In this document: piece after piece, positions 6,769 to 59,601 of the stretch | How positions within the stretch are numbered: position 1 is the first letter of the stretch | Layout of the letters: each line of letters starts with the position of its first letter | Assembly: GCA_947567425.1 (NCBI GenBank) | Contig: CANOLV010000006.1 | Coordinates: 1-64,000 of the forward strand | Length of the DNA stretch: 64,000 nucleotides | Direction of reading: 5' to 3' | From: an uncultured Porphyromonadaceae bacterium | GTDB lineage: Bacteria > Bacteroidota > Bacteroidia > Bacteroidales > Muribaculaceae | Made by a program: the position numbers and the translations under genes | Notes under the pieces: model-generated | The model's database searches: none | What the model saw: the letters and a program-made list of their open reading frames with translations, nothing else | What the model was told of the DNA's origin: nothing

Positions 6769-6786
6769 CCGTACAGGAGGATCGCT

Positions 6787-7572
6787 ATGGAACAGGAAGT
6801 ATCAATATTCGTGCAGTGTGTGTTCGAGTTTATCGGGACTTTGGTGTTGATTTTGCTCGGATGCGGAGTAGTGGCTTGTGTGAGCCTTAAGAAGTCCAAA
6901 GGCGAGGGGGGCGGATGGATTGTCGTCACGCTTGCCTGGGGTCTTGCAGTGTTCTGCGGTGTGCTTATCGCCGGCCCGTGGTCGGGTGCTCATCTTAATC
7001 CTGCCGTGACCCTCGGACTTGCCGCCGCGGGCAAGTTCCCTTGGACTGACGTGGGTCCGTTTATCGTGGCCCAGATTTTGGGCGGTATACTCGGAGCGGT
7101 TCTTGTCTACGTGTTCTACAAGGATCATTTCGATGCTACCGACGATGCGCAGACTAAGCTCGGTGTGTTTTCTACGATACCGGCTATACAGAACAAGACC
7201 CGCAATCTGATCTGTGAGATTATAGGCACATTCATCCTCGTACTGGTGATCCTGTTTATAGGCGACGAGGGCAACTCCGCACAGATGGTGGCCGAGTCGG
7301 GCTATAAGGCCAAGGTCGGTCTGGGAAGTGTGGGAGCTCTCCCCGTGGCGTTGCTCGTCGTGGTCATAGGGCTTAGCCTTGGAGGCACTACCGGCTATGC
7401 CATTAATCCTGCGAGAGATCTCGGACCGCGTATCGCACATGCCATTCTTCCGATCAAAGGAAAGGGCGATAGCCAATGGCATTACAGCTGGGTGCCGATT
7501 ATCGGTCCGGTATTGGGCGGTATAATAGCCGCTCTCGTATATTGGATCATCAAGACGATGATGCACGCTTGA
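6787..7572 (+). CDS. glpF: Glycerol uptake facilitator (aquaglyceroporin)
   Basis: A 261-residue inner-membrane channel of the MIP family that lets glycerol diffuse in. Both half-helix motifs are present: HLNPAVTLG near residue 70 and AINPARDLGPR near residue 207. The aspartate after the second NPA-R (NPARD) is typical of glycerol-conducting members rather than water-only aquaporins. Six hydrophobic segments are visible. The ATG is preceded by a strong GGAGG ribosome-binding site (bases 6777-6781). Directly downstream of glpK, so kinase and channel form one operon ending in a clear terminator. Confidence 0.95.
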   Translation: MEQEVSIFVQCVFEFIGTLVLILLGCGVVACVSLKKSKGEGGGWIVVTLAWGLAVFCGVLIAGPWSGAHLNPAVTLGLAAAGKFPWTDVGPFIVAQILGGILGAVLVYVFYKDHFDATDDAQTKLGVFSTIPAIQNKTRNLICEIIGTFILVLVILFIGDEGNSAQMVAESGYKAKVGLGSVGALPVALLVVVIGLSLGGTTGYAINPARDLGPRIAHAILPIKGKGDSQWHYSWVPIIGPVLGGIIAALVYWIIKTMMHA

Positions 7573-7592
7573 CAAGCTCTGAATAAGATAGG

Positions 7593-7634
7593 AATATCCG
7601 GTCAAAACGGCAATCGACCATTTGACCGGATATT
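7593..7634. terminator. Terminator between glpF and the acetyltransferase gene (convergent)
   Basis: An inverted repeat with a 14-base arm (AATATCCGGTCAAA / TTTGACCGGATATT) and a 14-base loop lies between the two convergent genes. It has AT-rich flanks on both sides and can serve either strand. The stem is long and perfect, though the T tract is short. Confidence 0.8.
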
Positions 7635-7655
7635 ATTATGCGGTTATGTTCAGAA

Positions 7656-8741
7656 CTATATCTTGATGTATATATGCTTTCTGTAGAGCATATAGCCGAA
7701 CATCCACATGAGCATTACGAATGCCGCGGAATAGACGGCGGATGCAAGATAGGGGTCGGCTATCACCGAATGTATCGCTTCGTAGATACAGGCTTTGGAG
7801 CCTGTGGTACTTGCCACTGAGGCCACGGCCTCGCTCAGGACATAGAGGAACAGCGGGTTTACTCCGAAAATCTCAAAGAAGCGGCACCACCGCCTATACC
7901 CGGACATGTCGATGACATATATCAGTGTGGCAAGGAGCGACGAGGCCAGTCCGCAGGTGACAAGCACGAATGTGGGCGACCAGATACGCTTGTTCAGTGG
8001 CAGCCATTCCGTCAGCAGGTAGCCTCCGGCCGTCAGGATGAAGCCGGCCGCGAATATGCGTATGACTTTGTCTGCGATAGGTCTTTTGCTGAACACCGTA
8101 TGGCCGAAGCAGAAGCCGATAAGTGTATGGGCTATGGCCGATATCGTGCTTGCCAGCCCTTCGGGGTCTATCGGACTCTTGCTGTAAAGATGATTTTCGC
8201 CGAGTATTGCACGGTCAAATTTGCAGATAAAGTTAGTGTCGTCGGGCGCATATCCGTTTGACAGGCACAGAAGCGCCGTATACGCCGCGAGCAATATCGC
8301 CGTGGTTTTGACGAGCGTCCGCCGACTAAAATGCAGGGCCATGAACGAGACTATGCAGTAGCATATCGCTATTCGGGTGAGCACTCCGGTCAGGCGCAGA
8401 TGGCCGAACACCAGAAATTCGCCGTCGATTATGTGGTCAAACCAATGTAGAAGCCAGCCGATGATGAGTATGAGGAGTGTACGTCTGATGATTTTCCTGT
8501 TTACGCCGGCCGATGGCCTGAAGCCGAATTTGTTCAGAGCGATATAGGTTGAGACACCCATTATGAACAGAAAGAACGGAAACACGAGGTCGCACGGGGT
8601 CAGTCCGTTCCATGCCGAGTGCCGCAGATAGTCGTATGACTGTCTGCCTCCGGCATTGTTGACGGCGATCATGCCTGCCACGGTGATGCCGCGGAGTATG
8701 TCGAGCGACAGTAGCCTTCTATTCGGTGCAGTCTCCGTCAT
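7656..8741 (-). CDS. HGSNAT-like membrane acetyltransferase (NagX/DUF5009, COG4299)
   Basis: A 361-residue polytopic inner-membrane protein related to human heparan-alpha-glucosaminide N-acetyltransferase, which uses cytosolic acetyl-CoA to acetylate terminal glucosamine on the far side of the membrane. The start RRLLSLDILRGITVAGMI and the block LRHSAWNGLTPCDLVFPFF (residues 39-57) closely match the human enzyme. His41 corresponds to the histidine proposed as acetyl carrier there. About ten hydrophobic segments follow. The N-terminal lumenal domain of the human protein is absent, as in other bacterial homologues. The start overlaps the end of the GH89 gene by 23 bases, so the two are translated from one message. 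Family homology is clear; the substrate is inferred from the neighbour. Confidence 0.85.
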   Translation of the reverse strand: MTETAPNRRLLSLDILRGITVAGMIAVNNAGGRQSYDYLRHSAWNGLTPCDLVFPFFLFIMGVSTYIALNKFGFRPSAGVNRKIIRRTLLILIIGWLLHWFDHIIDGEFLVFGHLRLTGVLTRIAICYCIVSFMALHFSRRTLVKTTAILLAAYTALLCLSNGYAPDDTNFICKFDRAILGENHLYSKSPIDPEGLASTISAIAHTLIGFCFGHTVFSKRPIADKVIRIFAAGFILTAGGYLLTEWLPLNKRIWSPTFVLVTCGLASSLLATLIYVIDMSGYRRWCRFFEIFGVNPLFLYVLSEAVASVASTTGSKACIYEAIHSVIADPYLASAVYSAAFVMLMWMFGYMLYRKHIYIKI

Positions 8742-10896
8742 TTCCGAATACGTTGGCGAATACTTCTTTGGCTACGGTCACGCAGTCGCCTTCGGCGTCA
8801 GCTTCGTAATGCTTTTTGTCGAGGGTCCATGGCTCCTCCATGGCGTAGTAGTCGAGGATCACCTCCGGTTTTCCTGCTAATTGATCATCCAGAGTCTTCC
8901 AGTAAGCTTCCCAGCGTGGATAGTAGAAGTCGCGGAGTATGCCGTTCCATTCCTTATGCGCGTAGTCGCGTAGTCCGCCCTCGTTGGCGCACGGGCGGTT
9001 TCCCCAAGTGGTTATCTGCACGCGTGCGTTCCACTCGTAAAGATCTTTTTCCTCTTCGGTGTTTCCGAGGTTGCGTGCCTGCGCTATCCATCGTCCCACT
9101 CTGAATTCGCTTCGAGTGGCCAGCAGACGGTCTTGGTTTAGTAGTATGTCGAGAAATCGCTTTGAATGGCGGTCGAAGCTGTTTTTGTCGAAGCTTTTGA
9201 AGTCGGCAATGGCTCTGTTGTAGGTGATTCGTCCTTCGTCAGACAGCGACTGGCGCACGATGTCCACAAGGTCGTATTCAAAGTTGTTGTTGCCGCGGTA
9301 TTTGTCGGCCACATCGAGCATCAGCCGTGCCGCGCGTGCCGTGGCTGTCGGGTCGTAATAGTTCTTCATCTTCGACCAGCTCGATGCCTGGAAGTTGTTG
9401 AGCGAGGGCCTGCCGCAGAAGATTGATTCGTGCGGACCCTGCTGGATATTGCCCAACGGAGCATTGTAGATGCTGTTGGCCAGTATGTTCCATGCTTCCT
9501 CTATTTTCTCGTCCTTCACTCCGTAGCGTGCCTGGGCATATTCCTTAAGCCATTCTTCTTTAGTGAATTTTTCGTTGCGCCAGGGCAGTTCGCACATGAG
9601 CTCAAACATGACCGGATTGTTCTCGGATCCCTCCATGGTGAGTCCGATACCCTTCATGTTTCTGGCCATCGGGTTGGTCTTGGCCTCGTAGAAGTTTTCG
9701 ATGAGGAAATCCATTCGTCCGTGGAGGCCCACATTGGCTCCGAAGTTTTCGAGCATGCACATCAACCAGTCATGCTGTTCAAATCCGTTGTCACGCTTGC
9801 CGGGCGATTCTATTCCCCACATGGGCTTGCATTCGCTGAACAGGTCAAGCACCAGCAGGTCGCCGGCGTTTAGGTTCTTGATCATCTCAGGTCTGGGGTT
9901 CTTGCCCCATGCCTGCACTACCCATACGGCTTTGTCGTTGGCACGCTTCATGGCCGACATCACGGCCTTGCCTGCCGCATCGAAATCGACACTGTTCTCC
10001 TTGCCGGCTTCATGGAGCGGGTCCATGGAGTAGAAGTCGGCTTTTCCATAAAGCTTTTCAAGTTCGGAATAGTATAGGTCGGCAATTTCGTTGTATCTCG
10101 GATCGGTGGGATTGATGAACGCCGGGCGCACGAATCCGTTCCAAAGGTCGGACTTAGTGATGTTGAGTCCGAGCTTTTCGTCGGCATTGTGCGGCACCAT
10201 GCCTGAATATCCGGGGAATACGGGCATTATTCCGTATTCGTCCATGCGTTTGAGTATCTTTTTCTGCAGAGCTTCCTGCTGGGCATACCATGAGTCGGGA
10301 TTCGGACCTCCCCAGCCTTCGAGATTGTTCATGGCCCACCACGCGAGAAATGCCGGACCGGCTATGAAGGCATTGATCTCCTCCTTGGAATAGCCGAGCT
10401 TGGAGAGCATGTTGTACCACACGCATTCCTGTCCGACCACGGCGAGAGGCAGATTTATGCCGTGGAGAGCCATCCAGTCGATCTCGCGTTCCCAGCGTTC
10501 CCAGTCCCAAAAAGCCATGGTGTAGGAGAAGGTGCAGTAGTTGAAGTCGTATCTCAGACCGAGATTGGTCTCTCTACGTTCGGGCTTTTCCACTTTCGGT
10601 AGCCGGTCGGGCAGTTGTGCCTGCATTCCGTTCCACGACAGGTGGATTCCGGCATAGTGCTTGAGATACCAGTTGATTCCGGTGGCTATGTTGACGTAGT
10701 TGTTGCCTCTGACCACCACTTTGTTGCCTTTCTGGTCGAGTTCAAAGAAGTCCTGAGGACCTTTTTTTAGTTCAATTTGGAATTTTTTTGAGGCTCCTCG
10801 GTCGATGCGTTCGAGCATCCCGGTTATAGGATTGGACGCGGACAGGCACACGGTGGTGAGTATCGCCGCTAATACAAGTAGTTTGCGCAGTATCAT
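8719..10896 (-). CDS. Alpha-N-acetylglucosaminidase, GH89 (NAGLU family)
   Basis: A secreted glycosidase of 725 residues that removes non-reducing alpha-linked N-acetylglucosamine, as in heparan sulfate or GlcNAc-alpha-1,4-Gal mucin caps. A signal peptide (LLVLAAILTTVCLSAS) is followed by a small N-terminal domain, then the GH89 barrel with NYCTFSYTMAFWDWERWEREI, GMVPHNADEKLG, the acid/base region MDPLHEAGKE, and the nucleophile region GIGLTMEGSENNPVMFELM. These match NAGLU and bacterial GH89. The long helical C-terminal domain is also present. Its 3' end overlaps the HGSNAT-like gene, suggesting that glucosamine acetylation and GlcNAc removal are coupled in the periplasm. Confidence 0.95.
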   Translation of the reverse strand: MILRKLLVLAAILTTVCLSASNPITGMLERIDRGASKKFQIELKKGPQDFFELDQKGNKVVVRGNNYVNIATGINWYLKHYAGIHLSWNGMQAQLPDRLPKVEKPERRETNLGLRYDFNYCTFSYTMAFWDWERWEREIDWMALHGINLPLAVVGQECVWYNMLSKLGYSKEEINAFIAGPAFLAWWAMNNLEGWGGPNPDSWYAQQEALQKKILKRMDEYGIMPVFPGYSGMVPHNADEKLGLNITKSDLWNGFVRPAFINPTDPRYNEIADLYYSELEKLYGKADFYSMDPLHEAGKENSVDFDAAGKAVMSAMKRANDKAVWVVQAWGKNPRPEMIKNLNAGDLLVLDLFSECKPMWGIESPGKRDNGFEQHDWLMCMLENFGANVGLHGRMDFLIENFYEAKTNPMARNMKGIGLTMEGSENNPVMFELMCELPWRNEKFTKEEWLKEYAQARYGVKDEKIEEAWNILANSIYNAPLGNIQQGPHESIFCGRPSLNNFQASSWSKMKNYYDPTATARAARLMLDVADKYRGNNNFEYDLVDIVRQSLSDEGRITYNRAIADFKSFDKNSFDRHSKRFLDILLNQDRLLATRSEFRVGRWIAQARNLGNTEEEKDLYEWNARVQITTWGNRPCANEGGLRDYAHKEWNGILRDFYYPRWEAYWKTLDDQLAGKPEVILDYYAMEEPWTLDKKHYEADAEGDCVTVAKEVFANVFGNDGDCTE

Positions 10897-10954
10897 TAAG
10901 AAGTGTGATATAATGGTTGTGGTAATGATTAGATATTTGACTGGCCGGCTGTGA

Positions 10955-12061
10955 TTATGACTTGTTCAATAGATTGAAGTAGTAGTCGAGCACGTCGCGC
11001 GCCGCCGTAAACGACGACTGCTGATTGTTGAGCACTCTTACTTCCTTCTCTTCAAGCATTTGCTTCACTTCGGGGTTCGTATAGAAGTTGCGCCGCAGCT
11101 TCTCGTCGATGGTCTCGAACATCCAGTAGCGTGCCTGCTCCTGACGTTTACGGTCAAAATAACCGTTTTCTTTCACAAAGTCAAAGTAGCGGTCGATCAT
11201 GTCCCAGACCTCTTCTATGCCGATTCCGTAGTAGCCGGAGTAGCAGAGTACTTCCGGAAACCATCCTGACTGTGTGGGCGGAAACAGATGCAGGGCGCTT
11301 CTGAACTGTGCCTGTGCCAGGCGTGCCCGGTCCACATTGTCGCCGTCGGCCTTGTTGATGACGATTCCGTCGGCCATCTCCATTATGCCTCGCTTGATGC
11401 CTTGGAGTTCATCGCCGGTTCCGGCAAGCTGTATCAGCAGGAAGAAGTCGACCATGGAGTGTACGGCTGTCTCGCTTTGGCCTACGCCCACTGTCTCAAC
11501 GAAAATGTTGTTGTAGCCGGCGGCTTCGCAGAGCACTATGGTCTCGCGGGTCTTTCTCGCCACACCGCCCAGGCTTCCTGCCGACGGGCTGGGGCGGATG
11601 AATGCCGATGGATGCACGGCGAGGCGTTCCATTCTGGTTTTGTCGCCGAGTATGGATCCTTTGGTGCGTTCGCTCGACGGGTCGATGGCGAGGACGGCAA
11701 GTTTGCCACCCTCCTTTAGCACATGGAGTCCGAACACATCGATGGATGTCGACTTCCCGGCTCCCGGCACTCCGGTTATACCGATGCGCTTCGAGTTGCC
11801 GGAGTAGGGGAGACACTTTTCTATCACTTCCTGTGCGATAGTCTGATGTTCTGCCGACAGGCTTTCCACGAGGGTCACCGCTCTCGAAAGGGTGGTGATG
11901 TCACCTTTAAGGATGCCTTCGACAAGTTCTCCCGAAGTCGGCAACGGTCTGCGTTTGCGGGGTTTGAGATATGGATTGACCACAGGTTGCTGTTTGACGC
12001 CGCTGTTGACGGTCAGTCCGGTATATTTTTCGTCGTTCTCGATATGTTCGTGCTGGTTCAT
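10955..12061 (-). CDS. meaB: MeaB/ArgK-type G-protein chaperone of methylmalonyl-CoA mutase
   Basis: A cytoplasmic GTPase that guards and reloads adenosylcobalamin in methylmalonyl-CoA mutase, which Bacteroidales use to make propionate from succinate. The P-loop GVPGAGKST, the switch block AVLAIDPSSERTKGSILGDK, and VETVGVGQSE and NKADGD (G4) are visible. The C-terminal dimerisation region is complete. An upstream ATG at 12097 would overlap the preceding gene by 17 bases. The ATG at 12061 (MNQHEHIEN, 368 residues) aligns better with the usual short, hydrophilic N-terminus and is preferred, though neither start has a strong ribosome-binding site. The mutase genes are not in the window. Confidence 0.93.
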   Translation of the reverse strand: MNQHEHIENDEKYTGLTVNSGVKQQPVVNPYLKPRKRRPLPTSGELVEGILKGDITTLSRAVTLVESLSAEHQTIAQEVIEKCLPYSGNSKRIGITGVPGAGKSTSIDVFGLHVLKEGGKLAVLAIDPSSERTKGSILGDKTRMERLAVHPSAFIRPSPSAGSLGGVARKTRETIVLCEAAGYNNIFVETVGVGQSETAVHSMVDFFLLIQLAGTGDELQGIKRGIMEMADGIVINKADGDNVDRARLAQAQFRSALHLFPPTQSGWFPEVLCYSGYYGIGIEEVWDMIDRYFDFVKENGYFDRKRQEQARYWMFETIDEKLRRNFYTNPEVKQMLEEKEVRVLNNQQSSFTAARDVLDYYFNLLNKS

Positions 12062-12080
12062 GGGCTTTGTTGCAGATGGG

Positions 12081-13163
12081 TTATTTAGTGAATTCACCGA
12101 CTATTCTCACTGACGACTGCGGCCGTTGTGGGTCGTTGGTGATGATGATAAGTTTGCTGTTTAGCATAGACGAATCGGTTGATTTCGACGTGTCGATGCT
12201 TATGGTCAGTCGGGCGTGTGAGCCGTGTTTGATTTTGTCCTTGTTGACTTTTACCGATATTTCCGGATCCACACATGATAATTTGCGTATGATCAGCGGG
12301 TCGTTGCCGTAATTGTCTATGCTCAGTTCCGCCACATGCTTTGATCCGGGCTTGATGCGTCCTAAATCCACTGTCGATTCCGACACTGCTATGCGGGGAG
12401 CGTTGGCCTTCTGCTTTTCTGTCATCTTACTGAAGTCTTCATTGACAATGGCTATCAATGACACAGGACGGCCCTCCTGCGAATCTGGATTGCCGAAGAT
12501 GGTAGCTTCGGTGGTCGAGAGTCCCCAGTCGTCGTTCTTGGCGGAGTTGTAGAAGAATGTGAAGGTAAGCTGCTCTCCCGGAGGTACGGCTTTGGGGGCT
12601 ATGTTGACATCTATATATTCGGGCAGACCTTCTACACGCGGACGGATAGTGTCGTTGCTCTGGTTGTAGCCGTCAAGGAAGGCTGTTTTTGTGCGTCCTT
12701 TCGTAATCTCGCCGAACGGCACGGCTGTGTTCCGTATCTTGAGTTTCCCGACTTCGATAGGATAGTGGGCACGCAGGGTCTTTGTGGCTCCTATGACCAC
12801 CCCTTTTATGGTGATCACGCTTTGGGCGGGATGGGTGTTGGTCTCTATTTTGACGCGTTTGTCAAATTTGCCGGGCCTGCCTGCCGGATTATAGGTCACA
12901 TCTACGGATGCGGTGTCGCCAGGTGCGATGGGGTCATGGGTATAGCTCGGGACAGTGCACCCGCAGGTGGCTCTTGCCGCCACTATTACGAGCGGTTCCG
13001 TGCCTGTGTTGACGAGCTGGAACGTGCTTGTCACCGGACCCATATCCTCGTCGAATGCTCCGAAGTCGTGGACATTCTGGAGCCATTTAACCTGTGGCTG
13101 TGCCGACAGGACCAATGCGCAGCACAGAGCGCAAAGTGCAGTGATGTATCTTGTGATATGCAT
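12081..13163 (-). CDS. Exported DUF1573 protein, three-domain
   Basis: A 360-residue exported protein with a signal peptide (residues about 1-21) and at least two Ig-like DUF1573 units. The first is typical: VHDFGAFDEDMGPVTSTFQL followed by TCGCTVPSY and DVTYNPAGRPGKFDKRV. Later copies are more divergent (VDLGRIKPGSKHVAELSIDNYG near residue 270). DUF1573 proteins are abundant in Bacteroidetes and lie at the cell envelope, but no reaction is known. The gene follows a single-domain DUF1573 gene by 30 bases and precedes meaB by 19 bases, so the three are likely one transcript. Confidence 0.85.
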   Translation of the reverse strand: MHITRYITALCALCCALVLSAQPQVKWLQNVHDFGAFDEDMGPVTSTFQLVNTGTEPLVIVAARATCGCTVPSYTHDPIAPGDTASVDVTYNPAGRPGKFDKRVKIETNTHPAQSVITIKGVVIGATKTLRAHYPIEVGKLKIRNTAVPFGEITKGRTKTAFLDGYNQSNDTIRPRVEGLPEYIDVNIAPKAVPPGEQLTFTFFYNSAKNDDWGLSTTEATIFGNPDSQEGRPVSLIAIVNEDFSKMTEKQKANAPRIAVSESTVDLGRIKPGSKHVAELSIDNYGNDPLIIRKLSCVDPEISVKVNKDKIKHGSHARLTISIDTSKSTDSSMLNSKLIIITNDPQRPQSSVRIVGEFTK

Positions 13164-13193
13164 TTTTTTTCTTGAAGTTGTGATGGCTGTGCG

Positions 13194-13589
13194 TTACTTT
13201 TTCTTGCTTTTGGGGATGACCGTGCCCATAATCTTGAGCTTGAATTTTGACGGTTTGGCATTTGACCTTACGGTAATGTCCTTGCTGAATTCGCCCGGCC
13301 GTCCGGAAGGGTTGAATGTCACGCGGATGATGGCTTCCTCTCCGCTCTTTATCGGTTCTTTGGGAATGACGGGGGTGGTGCATCCGCATGAAGCGTTGGC
13401 CGATGTTATGATCAGCGGCGACTCTCCGATGTTTTTGATGACAAAGTCGTGGCTTACGTCGCCTCCGCTCTCCTTTATGGTGCCGAAGTCGTAGCTTTTT
13501 TCCATAATTTTCACCTTCGGGGCTCCTCCTGCCAATGCCGATGTGACTGTGAGTATAGCCATAAAGACTAATGTAAGTAATCTGGTCAT
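13194..13589 (-). CDS. Exported DUF1573 protein, single-domain
   Basis: A 131-residue protein with a signal peptide ending near ALAGG and one DUF1573 unit: KSYDFGTIKESGGDVSHDFV, ANASCGCTTPVIPK, and RVTFNPSGRPGEFSKDITV. The C-terminus is short and lysine-rich (PKSKKK). It probably arose by duplication together with the larger neighbour, whose first domain has the same cysteine pair and NP-GRPG-F motif. Role unknown. It starts 68 bases after the DUF2400 gene. A near-consensus TAACTTTA box lies between them and may be a weak promoter. Confidence 0.85.
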   Translation of the reverse strand: MTRLLTLVFMAILTVTSALAGGAPKVKIMEKSYDFGTIKESGGDVSHDFVIKNIGESPLIITSANASCGCTTPVIPKEPIKSGEEAIIRVTFNPSGRPGEFSKDITVRSNAKPSKFKLKIMGTVIPKSKKK

Positions 13590-13657
13590 TGCATTAAATT
13601 TTTGTGTATAACATGTAAAGTTAACAAGTAACTGCTATCTGATGGATGCAATTAGGG

Positions 13658-14437
13658 TTAATTAACGTTAATGTCCTTGCCGTTCACACCTATTCCGAAC
13701 AGGGCATAGTCATATATGACGGGGTCGTCGGGACGCATCTCCTTAAGGCACGATGTCAGCTGTATGACGGCGTTCTTGTCGTTGCTCTTGCGTGTGAGCA
13801 GATTCAGTCCGCGTGCCGTGTTTCCGACATGGACATCAAGCGGTATGAACAGTTGGGCCGGTGTGATGACCCCTTTCCATACGCCTATATCCACGATTCC
13901 GTCGTCGCGCACGAGCCAGCGGAGAGCCATGTTGACGCGCTTCAAGGCGGTGGAGTCGAGGTTGCCGGGTAGGCATCGTGAGTTGGTGACTCCTCCGTTG
14001 GCCAGGGCGAGCTCCTGATTGAGATGCTCGACGAGTCGCCATGCCGGCAGGCTGTCGTCGTGTATTTTTTTTGATTTGGCAAATTCGGCTATCGACGGAA
14101 ATTGGGTGTAGACCCGGTTGAGTCCGCGCAGGAAGTGCCTCATGTCCTTTGCGAAGAAAGTTCTGTGGATGTTCATGTCAGGAAGCTCTTCGTAGCCTTG
14201 GTCCATGACGTAGCTGTATGGCTGGTAGTCCATGAGCTTAAGCATCTTTTCGCAGTTTGAGCATATCATCTTTCTGTTGCCCCATGCTATCGAGGCAGAC
14301 AACAGTGCGACAATCTCAATGTCCTGGAGTCGGTCGAAACGCCGCGGAAACTGTACGGGGTCTTTGTCGATGAAATCGGGGTTGTTGATCACCGAGGCTT
14401 CGTGGTCGAGCAGTTCCTTTATTTCTGGATCAATCAT
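13658..14437 (-). CDS. TIGR02757 / DUF2400 family protein
   Basis: A 259-residue cytoplasmic protein of the DUF2400 (TIGR02757) family, common in Bacteroidetes and spirochaetes and of unknown function. Recognisable stretches are NPDFIDKDPVQFPRRF, a helical middle (IEIVALLSASIAWGNRKMI), and the C-terminal LFIPLDVHVGNTARGLNLL with PDDPVIYDYALFGIGVNG. The C-terminal half resembles the helix-hairpin-helix DNA glycosylase fold (LDVHVGN at the place of the glycosylase DXHV motif), which would suggest a DNA-repair role. That is only a fold-level inference. The ATGA overlap with the MscS gene stop shows translational coupling. Confidence 0.85.
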   Translation of the reverse strand: MIDPEIKELLDHEASVINNPDFIDKDPVQFPRRFDRLQDIEIVALLSASIAWGNRKMICSNCEKMLKLMDYQPYSYVMDQGYEELPDMNIHRTFFAKDMRHFLRGLNRVYTQFPSIAEFAKSKKIHDDSLPAWRLVEHLNQELALANGGVTNSRCLPGNLDSTALKRVNMALRWLVRDDGIVDIGVWKGVITPAQLFIPLDVHVGNTARGLNLLTRKSNDKNAVIQLTSCLKEMRPDDPVIYDYALFGIGVNGKDINVN

Positions 14438-15645
14438 GCTTTGGTTAATGTGTTGCCGTTGATGTTAAGTAGTGATGTTATATCGGTGCCGGTGGGCGAT
14501 TGGAATATGCGCAGTCCGAATTCGTTGACTATGGCTATCACGTGGTCGAATATGTCGGCGGCTATGGTCTCGTATGATTTCCATTCGGTCTCCGATGTGA
14601 AGAAATAGAGCTGTACGGGCAGTCCCTGGGTAGTGGGGTCGAGTTGCCGGATCATGGTGAGCATCTCCTTTGACAGAACCTTCGGATGTGAGGATATGTA
14701 GTGTTCGACATATCTCCTGAACAGGTGCAGGTTCACGATTCTACCTGCCGGATCCGAAGCTTCGTCCTGGATTAGTCCGAGTTCGCGCAGACGCGCCGTC
14801 TCCGGGTCGGTCATAAACCGTATAGTGTTCATGTCGATGTTTATGGCCCGCATGACTCTTCTGCCCCCGCTCAGCTGCATGCCTCTCCAGTTCTGGAACG
14901 ATTCGGAGACGAGCGTGTATGGAGGCACGGTTATGATGGTATTGTCGTAGTTCTGGATTTTTACAGTGGTGAGGCTCACTTCTCTCACTATGCCGTTGGC
15001 GTTGCGGGAGGGTATTGTGATCCAGTCGCCCACGCGGAGCATATTGTTGACAGTGAGCTGTATTCCTGCCACCAGGCCTAATATCGAGTCTTTGAACACG
15101 AGCATGAGCACTGTGGCCGCCGCTCCGAACCCGGTCAGGATCGTGAGCGGGTTCTTGCTGAGCATGGTGCTGATGCCTACGATCACCCCGACGAATATTA
15201 TGGCGAGCTTAAGCATCTGGTAGAGCCCTTTCAGCGGATGGTTTTCCAGCCCTCTGACTGACAATGAACCTACGTAGACCCCCTTCAGGAGGGAGCATGT
15301 CAGCCTTACCGATACGGCTGTGATGTAAAGCAGCAGGACTTTCGACACGTAGAATTCAAGTGTGGGCAGTCCGTGAAGTATGGCCGGAATGAAGAAGAAT
15401 ACTATGACCGGAAGCACCAGATGCCATAGGTTGTTGAGCACTTGGTCGCTAAGCAGGTAGTCGTCCCACTTCGTTTCGGTCTTTCTGATAATCTTTTGGA
15501 TTATACGGGTGACGACGTTGCGGCAGAAATAGTCTACACCGGCTGTCACTACCAGCACCAGCAGAAGTATTATCATGCGTGTGGTCCACGCCATCTCTTC
15601 TTCAGGTATGCCGATTGCTGTCAGGAGATCGTCCAACTGGTTCAT
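14434..15645 (-). CDS. Mechanosensitive channel, MscS family (YbdG/MscM-like)
   Basis: An inner-membrane channel that opens under hypo-osmotic membrane tension. It has five or so hydrophobic segments, then the pore helix and beta domain with GFGAAATVLMLVFKDSILGL, RVGDWITIPSRNANGIVREV and TIITVPPYTLVSESFQNWRG. The long C-terminal domain is like E. coli YbdG. The open frame extends to an ATG at 15684, but that segment lies inside an inverted repeat (15668-15709), so the ATG at 15645 (MNQLDDLLTAIG, 403 residues) is the likelier start. The gene lies downstream of pheT and yebC and overlaps the DUF2400 gene by 4 bases. Confidence 0.9.
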   Translation of the reverse strand: MNQLDDLLTAIGIPEEEMAWTTRMIILLLVLVVTAGVDYFCRNVVTRIIQKIIRKTETKWDDYLLSDQVLNNLWHLVLPVIVFFFIPAILHGLPTLEFYVSKVLLLYITAVSVRLTCSLLKGVYVGSLSVRGLENHPLKGLYQMLKLAIIFVGVIVGISTMLSKNPLTILTGFGAAATVLMLVFKDSILGLVAGIQLTVNNMLRVGDWITIPSRNANGIVREVSLTTVKIQNYDNTIITVPPYTLVSESFQNWRGMQLSGGRRVMRAINIDMNTIRFMTDPETARLRELGLIQDEASDPAGRIVNLHLFRRYVEHYISSHPKVLSKEMLTMIRQLDPTTQGLPVQLYFFTSETEWKSYETIAADIFDHVIAIVNEFGLRIFQSPTGTDITSLLNINGNTLTKA

Positions 15646-15667
15646 GGTGATGGTATGCTTTATTGTA

Positions 15668-15709
15668 AATAGCTCCATAGTCATAGATGGATATGGCCAT
15701 GGAGCTATT
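15668..15709 (-). terminator. Hairpin between yebC and the MscS gene
   Basis: An 11-bp perfect inverted repeat (AATAGCTCCAT / ATGGAGCTATT) with a 20-base loop lies 41 bases after the yebC stop. No T tract follows on the minus strand, so it may act as a partial terminator or mRNA-processing site rather than a full stop. It also argues against the upstream MscS start at 15684. Confidence 0.5.
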
Positions 15710-15749
15710 GCAGATGTTTCTTATAGGATACGCGGATGGAGGAGTATGT

Positions 15750-16478
15750 CTACTCGTCGATGTCCTCTTCCTTCATGTTGTGGAACACGTTCTGGACATC
15801 TTCATCCTCTTCGAGTTTTTCGAGAAGCTTGTCGATTGCCACGCGCTGTTCCGGAGTCACATCCTTAAGCTCGTGCGGAATGCGCTCGAATTCAGAGCTG
15901 ATGATCTCAAATCCATTGTCTTCGAGATACTTCTGGATGTTGGAATATTCTTCGAAAGCGCCGTAGATCATCAGTTCGTCCTCGTCGTTTTCGATTTCGT
16001 CTACTCCGTAGTCGATGAGTTCGAGTTCGAGGTCTTCAAGCGATACGCCTTCTTTGGCTTTGATCTTGAACACTGACTTATGGTCGAAAAGGAATGTCAG
16101 TGAACCCTGTGTTCCGAGGTTGCCTCCGTGCTTGTTGAAGTATGAGCGCACGTTGGCCACGGTGCGGGTGTTGTTGTCGGTGGCGGCTTCTACGAAGATG
16201 GCGATTCCGTGGGGTCCGTATCCTTCGTATGTGATTTCCTTGTAGTCGCCGGCATCCTTGTCGGTAGCCTTTTTGATGGCACGTTCCACGGTGTCCTTAG
16301 GCATGTTCTCGGCCTTGGCATTCTGCATCAATGCCCTGAGGCGGGGATTGGTCGTGGGATCGGGGCCGCCGGCCTTCACCGCGATGGTGATTTCCTTACC
16401 TATTCGGGTAAATGTACGGGACATGTTGCCCCAACGTTTAAGCTTTCTTGCTTTGCGGTATTCAAACGCTCTTCCCAT
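15750..16478 (-). CDS. yebC: YebC/PmpR family protein
   Basis: A 242-residue cytoplasmic protein of the YebC family. Members were described as DNA-binding regulators, and more recent work links the family to rescue of ribosomes stalled at proline stretches. The family N-terminus is intact: MGRAFEYRKARKLKRW followed by KEITIAVKAGGPDPTTNPRL and NAKAENMPKDTVERAI. The middle holds YEGYGPHGIAIFVEAATDN. The acidic C-terminal tail (EEDEDVQNVFHNMKEEDIDE) is typical. It begins 37 bases after pheT and is probably in the same transcript. Confidence 0.95.
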   Translation of the reverse strand: MGRAFEYRKARKLKRWGNMSRTFTRIGKEITIAVKAGGPDPTTNPRLRALMQNAKAENMPKDTVERAIKKATDKDAGDYKEITYEGYGPHGIAIFVEAATDNNTRTVANVRSYFNKHGGNLGTQGSLTFLFDHKSVFKIKAKEGVSLEDLELELIDYGVDEIENDEDELMIYGAFEEYSNIQKYLEDNGFEIISSEFERIPHELKDVTPEQRVAIDKLLEKLEEDEDVQNVFHNMKEEDIDE

Positions 16479-25901: not shown

Positions 25902-26534
25902 TCATTTAAAAATAGCGCCGTCAAGAGAGGAATTAACTCCGTATAAGCTCTTAGTTGCCGTTAAATAATGCAATACATAGTTACACTTGTCATTGTCTGA
26001 ATCCCGATAGACTATAATGACAATATTACCGTCGATATAATAAGTGGCAGAGGTCGGATTTTCGTCATTCCAGTCCAATTTGCAGGTATCATCAGAATAA
26101 AATATTATGGCTGGCGGGTATCCTCGACTCCATCGTTTATTACATAATAATTCCTTAGAGAGAACTCCTGTTTTCCTTGCATATAATGCGATAGGTACAT
26201 TTAAAATATCGCTTGAACCAATATTAATCCCATCGACAGAGGCTGTAATTCTAAATGGAGTATTTTGCCAATTGGCATTGTCGAATGTGGTCTCGTTTCC
26301 GATGGTCAGGGACAATACGCCAAAGGCATCCGATGTTGCGGTCGTCTGTTCGTCGCAGATTATAGCTCCTTTACTGTCAGTTATCTTAATGGATACATTG
26401 ACTTTTTCATTTGTCCTGGGTTCTCCGGTATTTGTGTCAAGTAATGACACTTGATACCCTATTTGAGCATTGCCTTGAAATACAAAGCTACTAATAAATA
26501 GTAAAATAATTGTTGTGCTAATTTTCAGTTTCAT
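25902..26534 (-). CDS. Secreted protein: shared N-terminal Ig-like module, lipocalin-like C-terminus
   Basis: A 210-residue exported protein with a signal peptide (cleavage likely after FQGNAQ). Residues about 25-125 form a beta-sandwich-like module (YQVSLLDTNTGEPRTNEKVN to VPIALYARKTG). It resembles the N-terminal module of many Bacteroidetes surface proteins, which typically ends in a motif like LSVPYALYA. The remaining 85 residues are beta-rich (IIFYSDDTCKLDW, YYIDGNIVIIVYRD) and read like a small lipocalin-type ligand domain. The module is identical at DNA level to that of the next gene over 248 bases, while the C-termini differ. Last gene of a four-gene run. Function unknown. Confidence 0.7.
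   Translation of the reverse strand: MKLKISTTIILLFISSFVFQGNAQIGYQVSLLDTNTGEPRTNEKVNVSIKITDSKGAIICDEQTTATSDAFGVLSLTIGNETTFDNANWQNTPFRITASVDGINIGSSDILNVPIALYARKTGVLSKELLCNKRWSRGYPPAIIFYSDDTCKLDWNDENPTSATYYIDGNIVIIVYRDSDNDKCNYVLHYLTATKSLYGVNSSLDGAIFK
26209..26456 (-). repeat. 248-bp direct repeat, copy A
   Basis: This segment reads base for base the same as 26838-27085. It encodes the shared N-terminal module of two neighbouring secreted proteins. The identity stops abruptly at both ends, inside the coding regions, while the signal-peptide and C-terminal parts differ. Confidence 0.9.
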
Positions 26535-26557: not shown

Positions 26558-27148
26558 TTAGTCGTCCACCATATATAATTTGCCATTTTTAACGCTGTAA
26601 TGAAAGGCCCATCCGGAATTAGCATTCCGATAGACGTATACATTATTTCCATCTATTTCAAAAGGACATTTTTCTGTACGAGGTTCGTATGGATCAGGAT
26701 CCACGTATGTGGCTATTCCATTTGAGGAAAATGTCATACGACAATTATCATACATACTGACAGTCATATTTGTAAGAATGTCGAGTGTGAGAACTCCTGT
26801 CCGCTTTGCATATTCTGCAATTGGAACTGAAAGGATGTCGCTTGAACCAATATTAATCCCATCGACAGAGGCTGTAATTCTAAATGGAGTATTTTGCCAA
26901 TTGGCATTGTCGAATGTGGTCTCGTTTCCGATGGTCAGGGACAATACGCCAAAGGCATCCGATGTTGCGGTCGTCTGTTCGTCGCAGATTATAGCTCCTT
27001 TACTGTCAGTTATCTTAATGGATACATTGACTTTTTCATTTGTCCTGGGTTCTCCGGTATTTGTGTCAAGTAATGACACTTGATAACCCATTTGTCCGTA
27101 GGCGGTGAATGCCATAAACATGGCAATTATTGAAATGATCTGTTTCAT
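26558..27148 (-). CDS. Secreted protein: shared N-terminal Ig-like module, different lipocalin-like C-terminus
   Basis: A 196-residue exported protein, paralogous to the gene at 25902. Its own signal peptide (IISIIAMFMAFTAYGQ) is followed by the same module. The C-terminal 75 residues differ in sequence but have the same beta-strand pattern (NCRMTFSSNGIATYVDPD, FEIDGNNVYVYRN, FHYSVKNGKLYMVDD), like a half-length lipocalin-type domain. It begins 10 bases after the 698-residue protein gene. The perfect repeat indicates a recent duplication or gene conversion of the constant part. Probable location is the periplasm or cell surface; ligand unknown. Confidence 0.7.
   Translation of the reverse strand: MKQIISIIAMFMAFTAYGQMGYQVSLLDTNTGEPRTNEKVNVSIKITDSKGAIICDEQTTATSDAFGVLSLTIGNETTFDNANWQNTPFRITASVDGINIGSSDILSVPIAEYAKRTGVLTLDILTNMTVSMYDNCRMTFSSNGIATYVDPDPYEPRTEKCPFEIDGNNVYVYRNANSGWAFHYSVKNGKLYMVDD
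26838..27085 (-). repeat. 248-bp direct repeat, copy B
   Basis: Second copy of the segment at 26209-26456, offset by 629 bases, with no mismatch seen on reading through it. It covers residues of the beta-sandwich module only. Confidence 0.9.
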
Positions 27149-55375: not shown

Positions 55376-55407
55376 CAAAGGTACGAAATTATTCGTAAAA
55401 ATCCCAA
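55376..55407 (-). promoter_or_regulatory. Promoter for rplY-pth-S4 operon
   Basis: On the minus strand TTG (55407-55405), a 21-base spacer and TACCTTTG (55383-55376) match the consensus. The leader would be about 75 bases. Confidence 0.7.
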
Positions 55408-55449
55408 TCCGACGGGACTTATTTCTGAATTTTCAAAAATGCGGGATGA

Positions 55450-55468
55450 AATGCAGGGTGTTATGTAA
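55450..55468 (+). repeat. Boundary direct repeat, left copy
   Basis: AATGCAGGGTGTTATGTAA. The first 15 bases are identical to 57221-57235, and the two 19-base copies differ at one position. Together they bracket an AT-rich 1.8-kb segment. Confidence 0.8.
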
Positions 55469-55541
55469 GGGATTGACATTATTTTATGATAAAAACGTAT
55501 GAAAGACAATCAGATATTAGTCAGAATAAAAAATAATTATG

Positions 55542-55549
55542 TATATTTG
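55542..55549 (+). promoter_or_regulatory. -7 box inside the islet, before the peptide gene
   Basis: TATATTTG fits the -7 consensus. A TTAG 21 bases upstream is one base from a TTTG -33 box. Transcription would begin near 55556, about 40 bases before the TTG that opens the degenerate peptide gene. Confidence 0.5.
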
Positions 55550-55597
55550 TCGCTGAATAAGAGCTATTTGTAATGATTAAATTCTTTGTTTATAAAA

Positions 55598-55783
55598 TTG
55601 AAGAAACTAAAATTGAATGAATTCAAGAACTCATCTTGAAGAAAGTGTAGATTGTTAGGTGGTGGCACGCCGTATTATCATACTCCACAAGGAATTGGAT
55701 GTGCACTTCCACCACAAAAAGATTGTTTCTTCGCAGCACAGTCGATACTATGTCCGTCAACTCAACACTCTTGTTGGTTTTAA
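55598..55783 (+). pseudogene. Degenerate GG-leader peptide gene (RiPP-precursor-like)
   Basis: In one frame, from a TTG, the product reads KKLKLNEFKNSS, a TGA stop (55637-55639), then RKCRLLGGGTPYY followed by a Cys- and Pro-rich tail ending in SCWF and TAA. The KKLKLNEF start and the LLGGG are the hallmarks of Bacteroidales GG-leader peptides such as TIGR04149-type radical-SAM RiPP precursors. The piece between them also reads LEESVD in the +1 frame, which would fit a leader better and suggests two compensating frameshifts rather than one nonsense change. No maturase gene lies in the window. It stands 52 bases before the aspartic-protease gene and could be its former partner. Reading is direct; the family assignment is inference. 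Confidence 0.4.
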
Positions 55784-55835
55784 TAAGAAGAAAACGTGTA
55801 TGGCATTTTTTTGTAGGGTTTAATCATCTAAATAT

Positions 55836-57110
55836 ATGTGTTTCCAATATATTAATAGAATAACGGGCGCATGTCTACTCATATTATTGTTGGCAGTGTC
55901 ACACAACAGTTGCGATATTGCCAATACAGTAAATGAGAAATATGTGACTTTTGAATTTAATGATGAATATCCCAACCTTGTAATACCAGTCACATTACAA
56001 GACAGTATTTCTGCTAAATTAATTTTTGACACAGGCTGGGGGATTCTAACTTTAGACTCTGCGTTGGTTTCTCAATTTCCTTCATTAACCCCCAAAGACG
56101 TATCATCGCAAGAATATAGTGTGGGGTCAAATTGGAACCCTGCTTCTGCGAGAGAGTGTACGTTGTATTTTGACCAGGAATTTGAAACCCTCAATTTAAA
56201 GTTAGACAACAATCCCATGTATTTTGGTTATTGGATTGTAGGTAACGTTTATAATATTCTTGGTGCAAAAGATGTGAATGGCATTATGGGTATTCCGAGT
56301 GCAGATAGCACTAAGGTGTGGGGTTTTAATTTTGAACACAAGTACATAACAATACAAGAAGCGGATAGCTTTGAGATGCCAAAGGAATTTATGCTGTTTC
56401 CTATGAAGGTGGTCACTAACCCGCATGTCGCCATGACAATCAACGTTAATCTACCGCTGAAAATTCAAACTTCAGATGGAGATACAACGACGTTGTACCG
56501 TGATTTTTTCATTGATACCGGTGCGTGGAACGATATTATTCTTACATCAGAAGCTTCTGAACTTGCTTTCTTTGATACCAAGAAAGATGCCGTATGGATT
56601 GCTACATCTAATGGGCTGTATACAAGAAATCATGCCGTTAAAATCAGCATTGGGGATTACGAGGATAATTCGTTCCGCGTGACTACGTATGGCCATAAAA
56701 CCAAGGTGGCCAACCGTTACCTTATAGGACTGAATTTTTTAAAGCATTTTAATGTGTATTTTGACTTTCAAAGGAAGGTGATGGGGCTGAAACCGATTCC
56801 GCATTTTGAAAGAACTATAGACAAACATGCAAGACGTTATCACATGGGATTCAATATGGAGACGATGAATAAACAACAACGTTTCATTATTGAAACTATC
56901 GCAGATAACAAAGAAAACACCTACTATACAGCCGGACTGCGAGTGGGTGACGAGATAATCTCCGCAAACGGGATACTTTGGAAGAATGTCACACCTGAAC
57001 AAAGAGAGGCAATGTATCAAGGTGACAGTATCCAATTTAAGATTATCCGAGACAATGAGAACATGGAAATTTCAGTTCCGATAGATAAGAATGAGCCTAT
57101 AGGATATTAA
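55836..57110 (+). CDS. Exported aspartic protease-like protein with C-terminal PDZ domain
   Basis: A 424-residue probable lipoprotein (hydrophobic segment, then HNSC with Cys26). Two aspartic-protease-type motifs are present, FDTG at residues 64-67 and FIDTG at 225-229, each followed by a typical second strand (NGIMGIP near 148-154 and LIGLNFLKHFNVYFDF near 305). The enzyme therefore looks like a two-lobed retropepsin/pepsin-type protein. The last 85 residues are a PDZ domain with TAGLRVGDEIISANG. Low GC content sets the gene apart from its neighbours. It lies alone in the repeat-bounded islet, downstream of the degenerate peptide gene. Substrate unknown. Confidence 0.82.
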   Translation: MCFQYINRITGACLLILLLAVSHNSCDIANTVNEKYVTFEFNDEYPNLVIPVTLQDSISAKLIFDTGWGILTLDSALVSQFPSLTPKDVSSQEYSVGSNWNPASARECTLYFDQEFETLNLKLDNNPMYFGYWIVGNVYNILGAKDVNGIMGIPSADSTKVWGFNFEHKYITIQEADSFEMPKEFMLFPMKVVTNPHVAMTINVNLPLKIQTSDGDTTTLYRDFFIDTGAWNDIILTSEASELAFFDTKKDAVWIATSNGLYTRNHAVKISIGDYEDNSFRVTTYGHKTKVANRYLIGLNFLKHFNVYFDFQRKVMGLKPIPHFERTIDKHARRYHMGFNMETMNKQQRFIIETIADNKENTYYTAGLRVGDEIISANGILWKNVTPEQREAMYQGDSIQFKIIRDNENMEISVPIDKNEPIGY

Positions 57111-57220
57111 TAGGGCAAGAAGTCGTTATGTTCTCTGTGTGTAGTATTTAATTTTATAGACACGAATGATAAGGCTGTTGTAGTTTCGCAGTAGAGCATC
57201 CAAATGGAATTTTGCTATAT

Positions 57221-57239
57221 AATGCAGGGTGTTATATAA
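57221..57239 (+). repeat. Boundary direct repeat, right copy
   Basis: AATGCAGGGTGTTATATAA, matching 55450-55468 with one mismatch. It sits directly against the terminator that follows the minus-strand kbl gene. Confidence 0.8.
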
Positions 57240-57242
57240 AGT

Positions 57243-57268
57243 CATTGGCGCCCAAGCGGGCGCCAATG
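57243..57268 (-). terminator. Terminator after kbl
   Basis: A perfect 11-bp GC-rich stem (CATTGGCGCCC / GGGCGCCAATG) with a 4-base loop, 41 bases beyond the kbl stop. On the minus strand it is followed by ACTTTATAT. It may also stop transcripts from the plus-strand protease gene. Confidence 0.8.
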
Positions 57269-57308
57269 CTTGATTTCTAAGGTCAGAAGTGTTATGGCCG
57301 GAGGCAGT

Positions 57309-58502
57309 CTATTTGATGACTCCGAGCTTTTTGCCGACCTTTATGAACGCCGCGATGGCCCGGTCGAGCTGGTCGCGGTCATGTCCGGCTGAAAGCTGCA
57401 CGCGTATGCGTGCCTGTCCTTTCGGCACTACGGGATAGTAGAAACCGGTGACGTATATGCCCTCTTTCTGCATCTCGGCGGCGAAGTCCTGCGATAGTTT
57501 TGCGTCGTAGAGCATCACCGCGCAGATGGCCGACTGGGTCGGCTTGATGTCGAATCCGGCTTCGAGCATTTTAGTGCGGAAATATTCCACATTTTCCATC
57601 AGCTTGGCATGCAGTTCAGAGCTTTCGCCGAGCATCTTGAACATTTCGAGACTTGCTCCCACGATGCCGGGGGCCACTGAGTTCGAGAACAGGTATGGAC
57701 GTGAACGCTGGCGCAGCATGTCGATGATCTCTTTACGTCCGGTGGTAAATCCGCCCATGGCGCCTCCGAATGCCTTGCCGAGAGTGCCGGTGAATATGTC
57801 GATTTTTCCATACAGACCGTACTTTTCAGCAACTCCGTGTCCGGTCGGGCCGACAACTCCAGCGGAGTGGCTTTCGTCGACCATTACGAGTGCGTCGTAC
57901 TTTTCGGCCAGTTCGACGATCTTGTCCATCGGAGCGACATTACCGTCCATCGAGAACACACCGTCGGTGGCAATGATTCTGAATCTCTGGGCCTGAGCTT
58001 CCTGCAGACAGCGTTCGAGCTCGGCCATGTCGGCGTTGGCGTAGCGGTAGCGCTTAGCTTTGCAGAGGCGCACACCGTCGATAATCGAAGCATGGTTGAG
58101 TGCATCGCTTATGATGGCGTCTTCTTCGGTCAGGAGTGGTTCGAAGAGACCTCCGTTGGCGTCGAAGCAGGCGGCATAGAGTATGGTGTCCTCAGTCTTG
58201 AAGTATTCGCTTATGGCCTTTTCAAGCTCCTTGTGCATATCCTGAGTTCCGCATATGAAGCGGACCGACGACATTCCGTAGCCGTGGGTGTCCATGGCGC
58301 GTTTCGAGGCTTCGATCAGACGCTTGTTGTCCGACAGTCCGAGATAGTTGTTGGCGCAGAAGTTCAGCACTTCGCCCTGTGCTCCTTCGACGTTTATTCC
58401 GGCCTTCTGCGGAGAGGTTATGATACGTTCGTTTTTGTACAGTCCGGCATCCTTGATGTCCTGTAACTCTTTCTCCAAATGTGATTTAAAACTGGTGTAC
58501 AT
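57309..58502 (-). CDS. kbl: 2-amino-3-ketobutyrate CoA ligase (glycine C-acetyltransferase)
   Basis: A PLP enzyme (397 residues) that splits 2-amino-3-ketobutyrate with CoA to glycine and acetyl-CoA. Markers are NFCANNYLGLSDNKRLIEAS, MVDESHSAGVVGPTGHGVAE (Asp that binds the PLP ring), and the Schiff-base lysine in IFTGTLGKAFGGAMGG. The threonine dehydrogenase that feeds it is divergently transcribed across a 121-base gap, so both can be controlled together for threonine breakdown. Full length. Confidence 0.96.
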   Translation of the reverse strand: MYTSFKSHLEKELQDIKDAGLYKNERIITSPQKAGINVEGAQGEVLNFCANNYLGLSDNKRLIEASKRAMDTHGYGMSSVRFICGTQDMHKELEKAISEYFKTEDTILYAACFDANGGLFEPLLTEEDAIISDALNHASIIDGVRLCKAKRYRYANADMAELERCLQEAQAQRFRIIATDGVFSMDGNVAPMDKIVELAEKYDALVMVDESHSAGVVGPTGHGVAEKYGLYGKIDIFTGTLGKAFGGAMGGFTTGRKEIIDMLRQRSRPYLFSNSVAPGIVGASLEMFKMLGESSELHAKLMENVEYFRTKMLEAGFDIKPTQSAICAVMLYDAKLSQDFAAEMQKEGIYVTGFYYPVVPKGQARIRVQLSAGHDRDQLDRAIAAFIKVGKKLGVIK

Positions 58503-58623: not shown

Positions 58624-59601
58624 ATGAAGAATGTTCTGATAATCGGTGCTACAGGTCAGATCGGTACGGAGCTGACCATGAAATTGCGGGGTCTGTATCC
58701 TAATGGCAATATCGTTGCCGGTTTTATCAAGGGTGCCGAGCCTAAAGGGGTGTTGGCCGAGAGTGGTCCGTCTGCAGAGGTGGACATAACCAATCCAAAT
58801 CAGATAGCCGATGCGGTTGAAAAATACAATGTGGACACAATTTACAATCTTGCCGCCCTTCTGAGCGCGGTGGCCGAGGCTAAACCTCAGCTTGCATGGA
58901 AGATAGGCGTGGGCGGACTTTACAACACGCTTGAAGTGGCGCGAGAAAAGGGTTGTGCGGTGTTCACTCCGAGTTCGATCGGTTCGTTCGGTCCGGACAC
59001 TCCCCATGACCGGACTCCACAGGACACCATCCAGCGTCCGCACACCATCTACGGCGTGACAAAAGTGACTGGTGAGATGCTGTCCGACTATTATGCACGG
59101 CGTTTCGGGGTCGATACTCGCTCGGTGCGTTTTCCGGGACTGATTTCGTATGTAGCTCCTCCGGGTGGCGGCACCACCGACTATGCCGTGGACATATATT
59201 ATTCGGCGGTCAAGGGTGAGACATTCAAATGTCCGATCCACGCAGGAACTTTCATGGACATGATGTATATGCCTGACGCTCTGCGCGCCGCCGTGGAGAT
59301 AATGGAGGCAGATCCGTCGCGTCTGGTTCACCGCAATTCATTCAACATCGCTTCGATGAGCTTTGATCCGGAGATTATTTACAATAAGATTAAGGAATAT
59401 GTGCCTGAATTCAAGATGGAATATGTTCACGATCCGTTGCGTCAGGCCATTGCCGATTCTTGGCCTAACTCTCTTGATGACACATGTGCCCGAGAGGAAT
59501 GGGACTGGAAGCCGGAGTATGATCTCGACAAGATGACTCAGGACATGCTGTCGCATCTGCGTGTGAAGCTCGGCGTTGCAGAAAAGGAAATGGCATATTA
59601 A
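58624..59601 (+). CDS. L-threonine 3-dehydrogenase, short-chain (epimerase-like) type
   Basis: A 325-residue SDR-fold protein, NAD-dependent, that oxidises threonine to 2-amino-3-ketobutyrate, the substrate of the divergent Kbl. The Rossmann motif is NVLIIGATGQIGTELTMKLR and the SDR catalytic pair lies in TIYGVTKVTGEML (Tyr, Lys). The short-chain threonine dehydrogenases of Bacteroidetes are close to UDP-galactose epimerases in sequence and are often labelled only as epimerase family; the pairing with kbl supports this call. The M18 peptidase follows 22 bases downstream. Confidence 0.87.
   Translation: MKNVLIIGATGQIGTELTMKLRGLYPNGNIVAGFIKGAEPKGVLAESGPSAEVDITNPNQIADAVEKYNVDTIYNLAALLSAVAEAKPQLAWKIGVGGLYNTLEVAREKGCAVFTPSSIGSFGPDTPHDRTPQDTIQRPHTIYGVTKVTGEMLSDYYARRFGVDTRSVRFPGLISYVAPPGGGTTDYAVDIYYSAVKGETFKCPIHAGTFMDMMYMPDALRAAVEIMEADPSRLVHRNSFNIASMSFDPEIIYNKIKEYVPEFKMEYVHDPLRQAIADSWPNSLDDTCAREEWDWKPEYDLDKMTQDMLSHLRVKLGVAEKEMAY

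Follow-up and report, generated by a model that had tools for sequence, protein, structure and literature searches.

A low-GC islet between rplY and kbl in a Muribaculaceae genome, probably a decaying fragment of a radical-SAM RiPP operon that kept its protease

The closest described systems are the TIGR04149/TIGR04148/TIGR04150 clusters of Bacteroides fragilis 3_1_12 and B. uniformis ATCC 8492, in which a precursor with a GG leader is accompanied by radical SAM and pseudo-rSAM proteins (PMC4573289). In the GG-Bacteroidales cluster of B. fragilis 3_1_12, a lipoprotein is encoded between the precursor and radical SAM genes (PMC4573289), and a published survey of RiPPs in Bacteroidales puts the emphasis on C39 exporters for leader removal (PMC10352776). 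Two further systems concern defence: the orphan immunity genes of gut Bacteroidales, which have been described as acquired interbacterial defence (PMC10470768, PMC12247911), and the nisin resistance protein NSR, a membrane protease that cleaves lantibiotics (PMC4698656, PMC4828448). Our literature search returned no paper that pairs an aspartic protease with GG-Bacteroidales precursors, and the word "aspartyl" is absent from the two closest papers (PMC10352776, PMC4573289). Here, we describe an islet in which a gene for such a protease follows the remains of a precursor gene, and which is probably the 5′ part of a TIGR04149 (GG-Bacteroidales) radical-SAM RiPP operon that was acquired horizontally and is decaying, lodged between rplY and kbl with its protease kept.

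The window, by which we mean the whole stretch of 64,000 nucleotides that was analysed, belongs to a 57-contig assembly of 2.9 Mb that is 92% complete. An earlier, sequence-only reading of the window had pointed to a segment of about 1.8 kb, poorer in GC than its flanks, bounded by a direct repeat, situated between the rplY promoter and the kbl terminator and free of integrase or transposase genes, and this description holds throughout. The bracketed segment has a GC content of 36.8%, against 50.3% for the window, whose lowest-GC stretch of equal length begins at 55419. Apart from the protease, no open reading frame inside the islet is longer than 98 aa, which leaves no space for an integrase or a transposase, and neither a recombinase gene nor a known att site was found there. 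We considered the islet as a transposon and rejected this for want of terminal inverted repeats, as those at its inner ends do not exceed chance (909 of 1000 shuffles were as good). Its reading as phage or plasmid cargo was likewise rejected, as the protease was not found in plasmids or, in a search that covered close relatives of it only, in viral contigs. ARAGORN calls no tRNA inside the islet, and the tRNA-Ser that it calls at 59155-59247 (minus strand), inside a long open reading frame (58624-59601), is probably false. The stretch 54000-60000 matches no Rfam family, and a reading of the islet as an RNA element was dropped.

The precursor lesions, the intact protease and a maturase stub that ends at the repeat lead us to read the islet as promoter, dead precursor, live protease and maturase stub. 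The same order of genes is found at two related loci, L119 and L133, where a TIGR04149 precursor comes first, then a retropepsin gene and then one for a radical SAM/SPASM protein; proteins of TIGR04148 and TIGR04150 are encoded close by. The consensus of the Bacteroidota −7 promoter box is TAnnTTTG, and TATATTTG at 55542..55549 (plus strand) fits it, which makes this candidate the probable promoter of the islet. Homology of the DNA to the left of the promoter was considered and dropped: against the stretches that precede the L133 precursors it scores 36 and 44, below the shuffle maxima of 49 and 48, and its score of 59 against L119 (shuffle maximum 55) comes mainly from the precursor part.

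The dead TIGR04149-type precursor gene occupies 55592..55783 on the plus strand and was delimited by blastn to the L133 precursors, by alignment and by its reading frames. Its frame encodes a GG-type leader ending in LLGGGTP and then a core with four Cys residues; it is interrupted by a TGA and has lost its ATG. ATA stands where the start codon is expected, two gaps of 2 nt and 7 nt jointly restore the frame, and the in-frame TGA, at 55637, lies between them. Over 55577-55672 blastn aligns the DNA at 70% identity (105 columns, E 2.4e-7) with the L133 precursors, which themselves score 50.5 and 51.4 bits against TIGR04149 (cut-off 25), and the islet peptide has both KKLKLNE and LGGGTP in common with the L119 precursor. 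The read-through peptide has no match to TIGR04149 at E <= 1, and a search of the genome likewise returned none at E <= 1. Against leader models built here the peptide reaches E 0.013 and 0.056, where the rebuilt model consists of 25 rows, lacks a clean row for five of the 30 loci and keeps one row (L098) that is unlike any precursor. An open reading frame with a start codon, as a TIGR04149 precursor would have, is not present. By its alignment the islet precursor shares descent with the intact members of TIGR04149, and to judge from its lesions the gene is dead.

The gene that follows, at 55836..57110 on the plus strand, is intact and encodes a predicted retropepsin-like (clan AA) aspartic protease of 424 aa with a C-terminal PDZ domain. 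Both catalytic D[TS]G motifs are present as DTG, in FDTGW and in IDTGA. The protein scores 23.1 bits against PF13975, below the gathering score of 28.2, and 21.5 bits against PF00595 (PDZ; E 3e-4), slightly under the cut-off of 23.2; a profile of the protease family retrieves the PDZ parts of DegP-type proteases at E 2.7e-11. An N-terminal signal that ends at a Cys, recognised by eye, makes it a probable lipoprotein.

Matches to the protease were found in four of 397 genomes of the family, namely the source genome itself and three at 24–34% identity, so that none of the 396 other genomes holds a close homologue. The best match comes from a Paraprevotella MAG (locus L071; 71% aa and 75% DNA identity), and these two observations together point to horizontal transfer; the low GC content of the islet also speaks for a foreign origin. 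At E <= 1e-5 an order-wide search gave matches in 14 of 393 genomes, the source genome included, and two further family searches with an alignment gave matches in 5 of 123 and 3 of 56 genomes, each including a genome already known. In a midpoint-rooted maximum-likelihood tree, the islet protease and that of L071 group with support 100/100 and are joined to the four L133 copies with 99/98; long branches were flagged for L120b and the outgroups. At L071 a regulator-like sequence occurs twice (39-446 and 1980-2360) around an AAA-type gene, as if the insertion of this gene had been accompanied by a long duplication (both names were given by eye).

How far has the protease been maintained by selection? 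Between the islet protease and that of L071, dN is 0.16 and dS 1.09 over 380 codons. On the islet branch, changes amount to 35 of 99 for third positions and to 47 of 509 for first and second positions (p 5e-10), and as judged from these counts the protease is under purifying selection along that branch. The islet branch measures 0.29 and that of L071 0.14, and the relative-rate count of 24 versus 15 is not significant. Because much of the islet branch may predate the insertion, and part of it the loss of the peptide, constraint after peptide loss is not proven.

Downstream of the protease lies a remnant of a radical SAM/SPASM maturase gene (57162..57223, plus strand), which corresponds to the first ~20 codons and has a frame-shifted start and no ATG. 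Positions 57185-57223 read FAVEHPNGILLYN, and the counterpart in the L133 maturase is FEIEHLNGILLYN. Among the 127,924 six-frame 13-mers of the window, the remnant has a BLOSUM score of 55 against the L133 stretch (runner-up 25) and of 40 against the L119 stretch (runner-up 33). At the DNA level, the right edge aligns with L133 at a score of 47, above the maximum of 41 in 300 shuffles; against the L119 maturase it scores 37, which equals the shuffle maximum of 37 and is no better than chance. The similarity stops at 57223, ~20 codons in and at most 3 bases from the start of the right repeat copy at 57221, and this copy overlaps the final 3 bases of the similarity. A radical SAM maturase beside the precursor is thus reduced to ~20 garbled codons. 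Elsewhere in the genome one SPASM protein was found at E <= 0.001, flanked by glycosyltransferases, a cut-off that could miss an L133-like maturase with a weak SPASM match.

The left neighbour of the islet is rplY, for 50S ribosomal protein L25 (54644..55294, minus strand), and the right neighbour (57309..58502, minus strand) is a Pfam class I/II aminotransferase gene that we take to be kbl, the label given in the sequence-only reading. A terminator-like hairpin of kbl lies on the host side at 57243..57268 (minus strand). Similarity to relatives stops at ~55389 on the rplY side and at ~57308-57325 on the kbl side, for which reason the flanking bases are not assignable to host or insert by comparison. 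All 13 other genomes of the genus contain rplY, three of the 13 contain a close kbl (86–96% identity), and in none were the two found adjacent, so that no empty site without the islet is seen among them. In the three genomes with a close kbl, rplY and kbl are on separate contigs and other genes come after kbl. In the closest relative, G011, a collinear contig runs to the rplY promoter and ends ~140 bases beyond rplY, and a second contig is collinear from kbl and then carries different genes beyond it, so that synteny is broken in the rplY–kbl interval. The segment itself, which according to the sequence-only reading might instead have been a vertically inherited part of close relatives, is absent from the relatives searched. 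As to the region upstream of rplY, which could be seen in 11 of the 13 genus genomes (L057-L067), three (L057-L059) share a neighbour and eight differ, as compared by eye through the first listed open reading frame, and the region looks as if it were a recurrent gene-order breakpoint.

The repeat was located by pattern search and gapless local alignment. The 15-mer AATGCAGGGTGTTAT starts at 55450 and again at 57221, identical in both places, and with an extension that includes TAA 18 of 19 bases agree. The left copy, AATGCAGGGTGTTATGTAA, spans 55450..55468 (exact 15-mer 55450-55464); the right copy, AATGCAGGGTGTTATATAA, spans 57221..57239 (exact 15-mer 57221-57235) and adjoins the T-rich tail of the kbl terminator; no strand is assigned to either. 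With up to 2 mismatches allowed, the pattern occurs at 7 sites in the 2.9-Mb genome, 2 of them exact and the other five with two mismatches, against 6 sites for the reversed-pattern control. Its 18 specified bases, with at most 1 mismatch, occur in 1 of 397 family genomes, which is the source genome, and there is no exact match in viral contigs. With two exact copies only and a single genome of the family, the repeat as an interspersed or frequent intergenic motif is out.

What can be concluded from a repeat of this length? By itself a 15-bp pair is unremarkable, since about a quarter of simulated windows contain one: among 60 first-order Markov copies of the window, 16 had at least one exact 15-mer pair no more than 5 kb apart (mean 0.27). 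The actual window has two such pairs within 5 kb, the second being a 248-bp exact direct repeat (26209-26456 and 26838-27085, at a distance of 629 bp) from a region that is low in GC. The placement of the islet repeat is more telling than its length, because the start of the right copy at 57221 nearly coincides with the end of the maturase similarity at 57223, an independent landmark. In addition, the edge stretches 55390-55542 and 57200-57250 shared a run of at least 15 bases in only 1 of 3000 shuffles. We infer that the repeat marks both insertion junctions. A chance match flanking an unrelated, old intergenic region would be in keeping with the simulated windows, but the position of the right copy and the edge shuffles make it very improbable.

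Several routes could have led to these junctions. In the explanation that we prefer, a broken piece of a foreign RiPP operon would have been captured between rplY and kbl, and host DNA would have been duplicated at capture through a staggered break and target duplication, for which a recombinase is unnecessary and which would leave a repeat of 15–19 bp. The duplication of a host target at the captured fragment is unproven, and we put its chances at about even; that the right copy adjoins the tail of the kbl terminator favours a host origin for this copy. Alternatively, a larger element or a rearrangement may have delivered the operon, with later deletions leaving only a scrap and the repeat representing the short homology used in the deletion. 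The synteny break in G011 is in line with this, and means that more than a clean insertion may have occurred. However, the repeat does not resemble a maturase gene (it agrees with L119 at 11 of 19 bases and with L133 at 9 of 19, where the best agreement elsewhere in the genes is 12), and after the left copy none of the three frames yields a maturase reading by eye; we therefore regard this course of events as unlikely. The right repeat copy as native maturase sequence was rejected as well, the 11 matching bases with L119 being gene background.

The sequence-only reading had suggested that the repeat could be an attachment-site or target-site footprint of a small mobile cassette, or a recombination scar, with the peptide-like gene and the protease as possible cargo. 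A foreign, repeat-bounded segment with a peptide gene and a protease is indeed what we find, and footprint or scar remains a fair description of the repeat. The self-contained cassette with live cargo does not survive, for the peptide gene is dead and the operon is cut inside the maturase gene at most 3 bases from the start of the right repeat; nor is there a sign of a recombinase site that would speak for attachment. A variant in which the repeats are attL and attR and an integrase acts from elsewhere by site-specific recombination would account for exact 15-bp repeats on both sides of a foreign segment. Yet the restriction of the repeat to one family genome without an exact counterpart in viral contigs, the lack of a recombinase-sized reading frame other than the protease, a cargo that stops mid-gene as that of a cassette would not, and a site free of tRNA and Rfam elements all weigh against it, and we consider this variant distinctly unlikely.

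Returning to the captured operon fragment as the preferred explanation, the related loci show in what company its protease occurs elsewhere. L120 contains two precursors, each followed by its own retropepsin gene, with a TIGR04148 protein after them. At L133, four retropepsin genes and two near-identical precursors lie in one RiPP cluster (5842-16377), and precursor and protease seem to have been duplicated together, as a pair. In L119, what follows other GG precursors (8170-9745 and 14759-16006) is not a retropepsin but a 6-bladed beta-propeller lipoprotein (PF17170). In L134 (3640-10058) and L135 (1170-4055) retropepsins are found beside PF17170 beta-propeller lipoproteins, and no precursor turned up in the 2 kb around these retropepsins. 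Among 12 loci of the protease clade, a count that omits L130 (G885, E 2.7e-22) and the weaker matches L077-L086 and L036-L038, three have a precursor within 2 kb (L119, L120 and L133) and the islet has a dead one. No precursor was found within 2 kb at the other eight (L071, L121, L134, L135, L136, L141, L142 and L143), L141 being covered for ~1 kb upstream; all eight keep both D[TS]G motifs. Conversely, a retropepsin lies within 1.5 kb at three of 30 TIGR04149 loci, two of them in G682 and G580, where the link first emerged, and the third weak, from which it follows that most such clusters do without one.

Why would the protease outlast its peptide? It may have been retained because it has a use of its own even when the peptide is gone. 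It would then act on peptides in the cell envelope, most plausibly as protection against related peptides from neighbours, although this step is weaker than the capture itself. Possibly, then, the protease is still intact because it is protective for the cell. Pairing with a precursor in some genomes and solitary occurrence in more is the pattern that an immunity or resistance gene would show, and a general protease recruited into such operons would show it too. There is nearly an even chance that the protease does not protect: it would instead be a peptidase for the leader or the maturation of the RiPP, or else a general protease of the envelope that persists through inertia or serves an unrelated purpose. 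That in L119 and L133 its gene separates the precursor from the maturase is consistent with this, and among the listed open reading frames of the L120 (14 kb) and L133 (20 kb) stretches no exporter was recognised by eye, so that another protease could cut the leader there. However, L119 encodes an ABC exporter with a C39 peptidase domain as well, and the eight loci with no precursor found within 2 kb have all retained the catalytic motifs. More broadly, and only tentatively, since we think it rather unlikely as a whole, the retropepsin-PDZ lipoprotein and the beta-propeller lipoproteins of the L119 type could be dedicated immunity proteins of Bacteroidales radical-SAM RiPPs that persist and travel without the peptide as a layer of acquired immunity, singly (islet, L071, L121) or in small arrays (L134, L135), as orphan type VI immunity genes do.

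In the preferred explanation, the islet is a snapshot of a peptide operon after its passage from one family to another, with the peptide gone and a single envelope protease remaining. If the protease protects, resistance to the RiPPs of gut Bacteroidales may be common and missed by genome mining that is keyed to precursors and maturases, and such resistance is directly testable with intact clusters, for example L133.

Set against the described systems, the islet resembles the GG-Bacteroidales clusters in its gene content, with a precursor gene, one for a probable lipoprotein and the beginning of one for a radical SAM protein (PMC4573289), the lipoprotein of B. fragilis 3_1_12 being likened to ours by position, as the passages of that paper on the cluster do not state a retropepsin. 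It differs in that the precursor is dead and fails TIGR04149, the maturase is truncated and no exporter lies inside. As with the orphan immunity genes, the islet protease is elsewhere paired with a partner gene and has been kept alone after horizontal transfer; type VI effectors are the targets of the former, whereas the partner of the islet protease is a RiPP precursor and its protection is putative. Finally, the islet protein recalls NSR in that a modified peptide is the proposed target of a protease in the envelope, which would inactivate it; NSR belongs to the S41 family of serine proteases, whereas the islet protein is a predicted aspartic protease with a PDZ domain.
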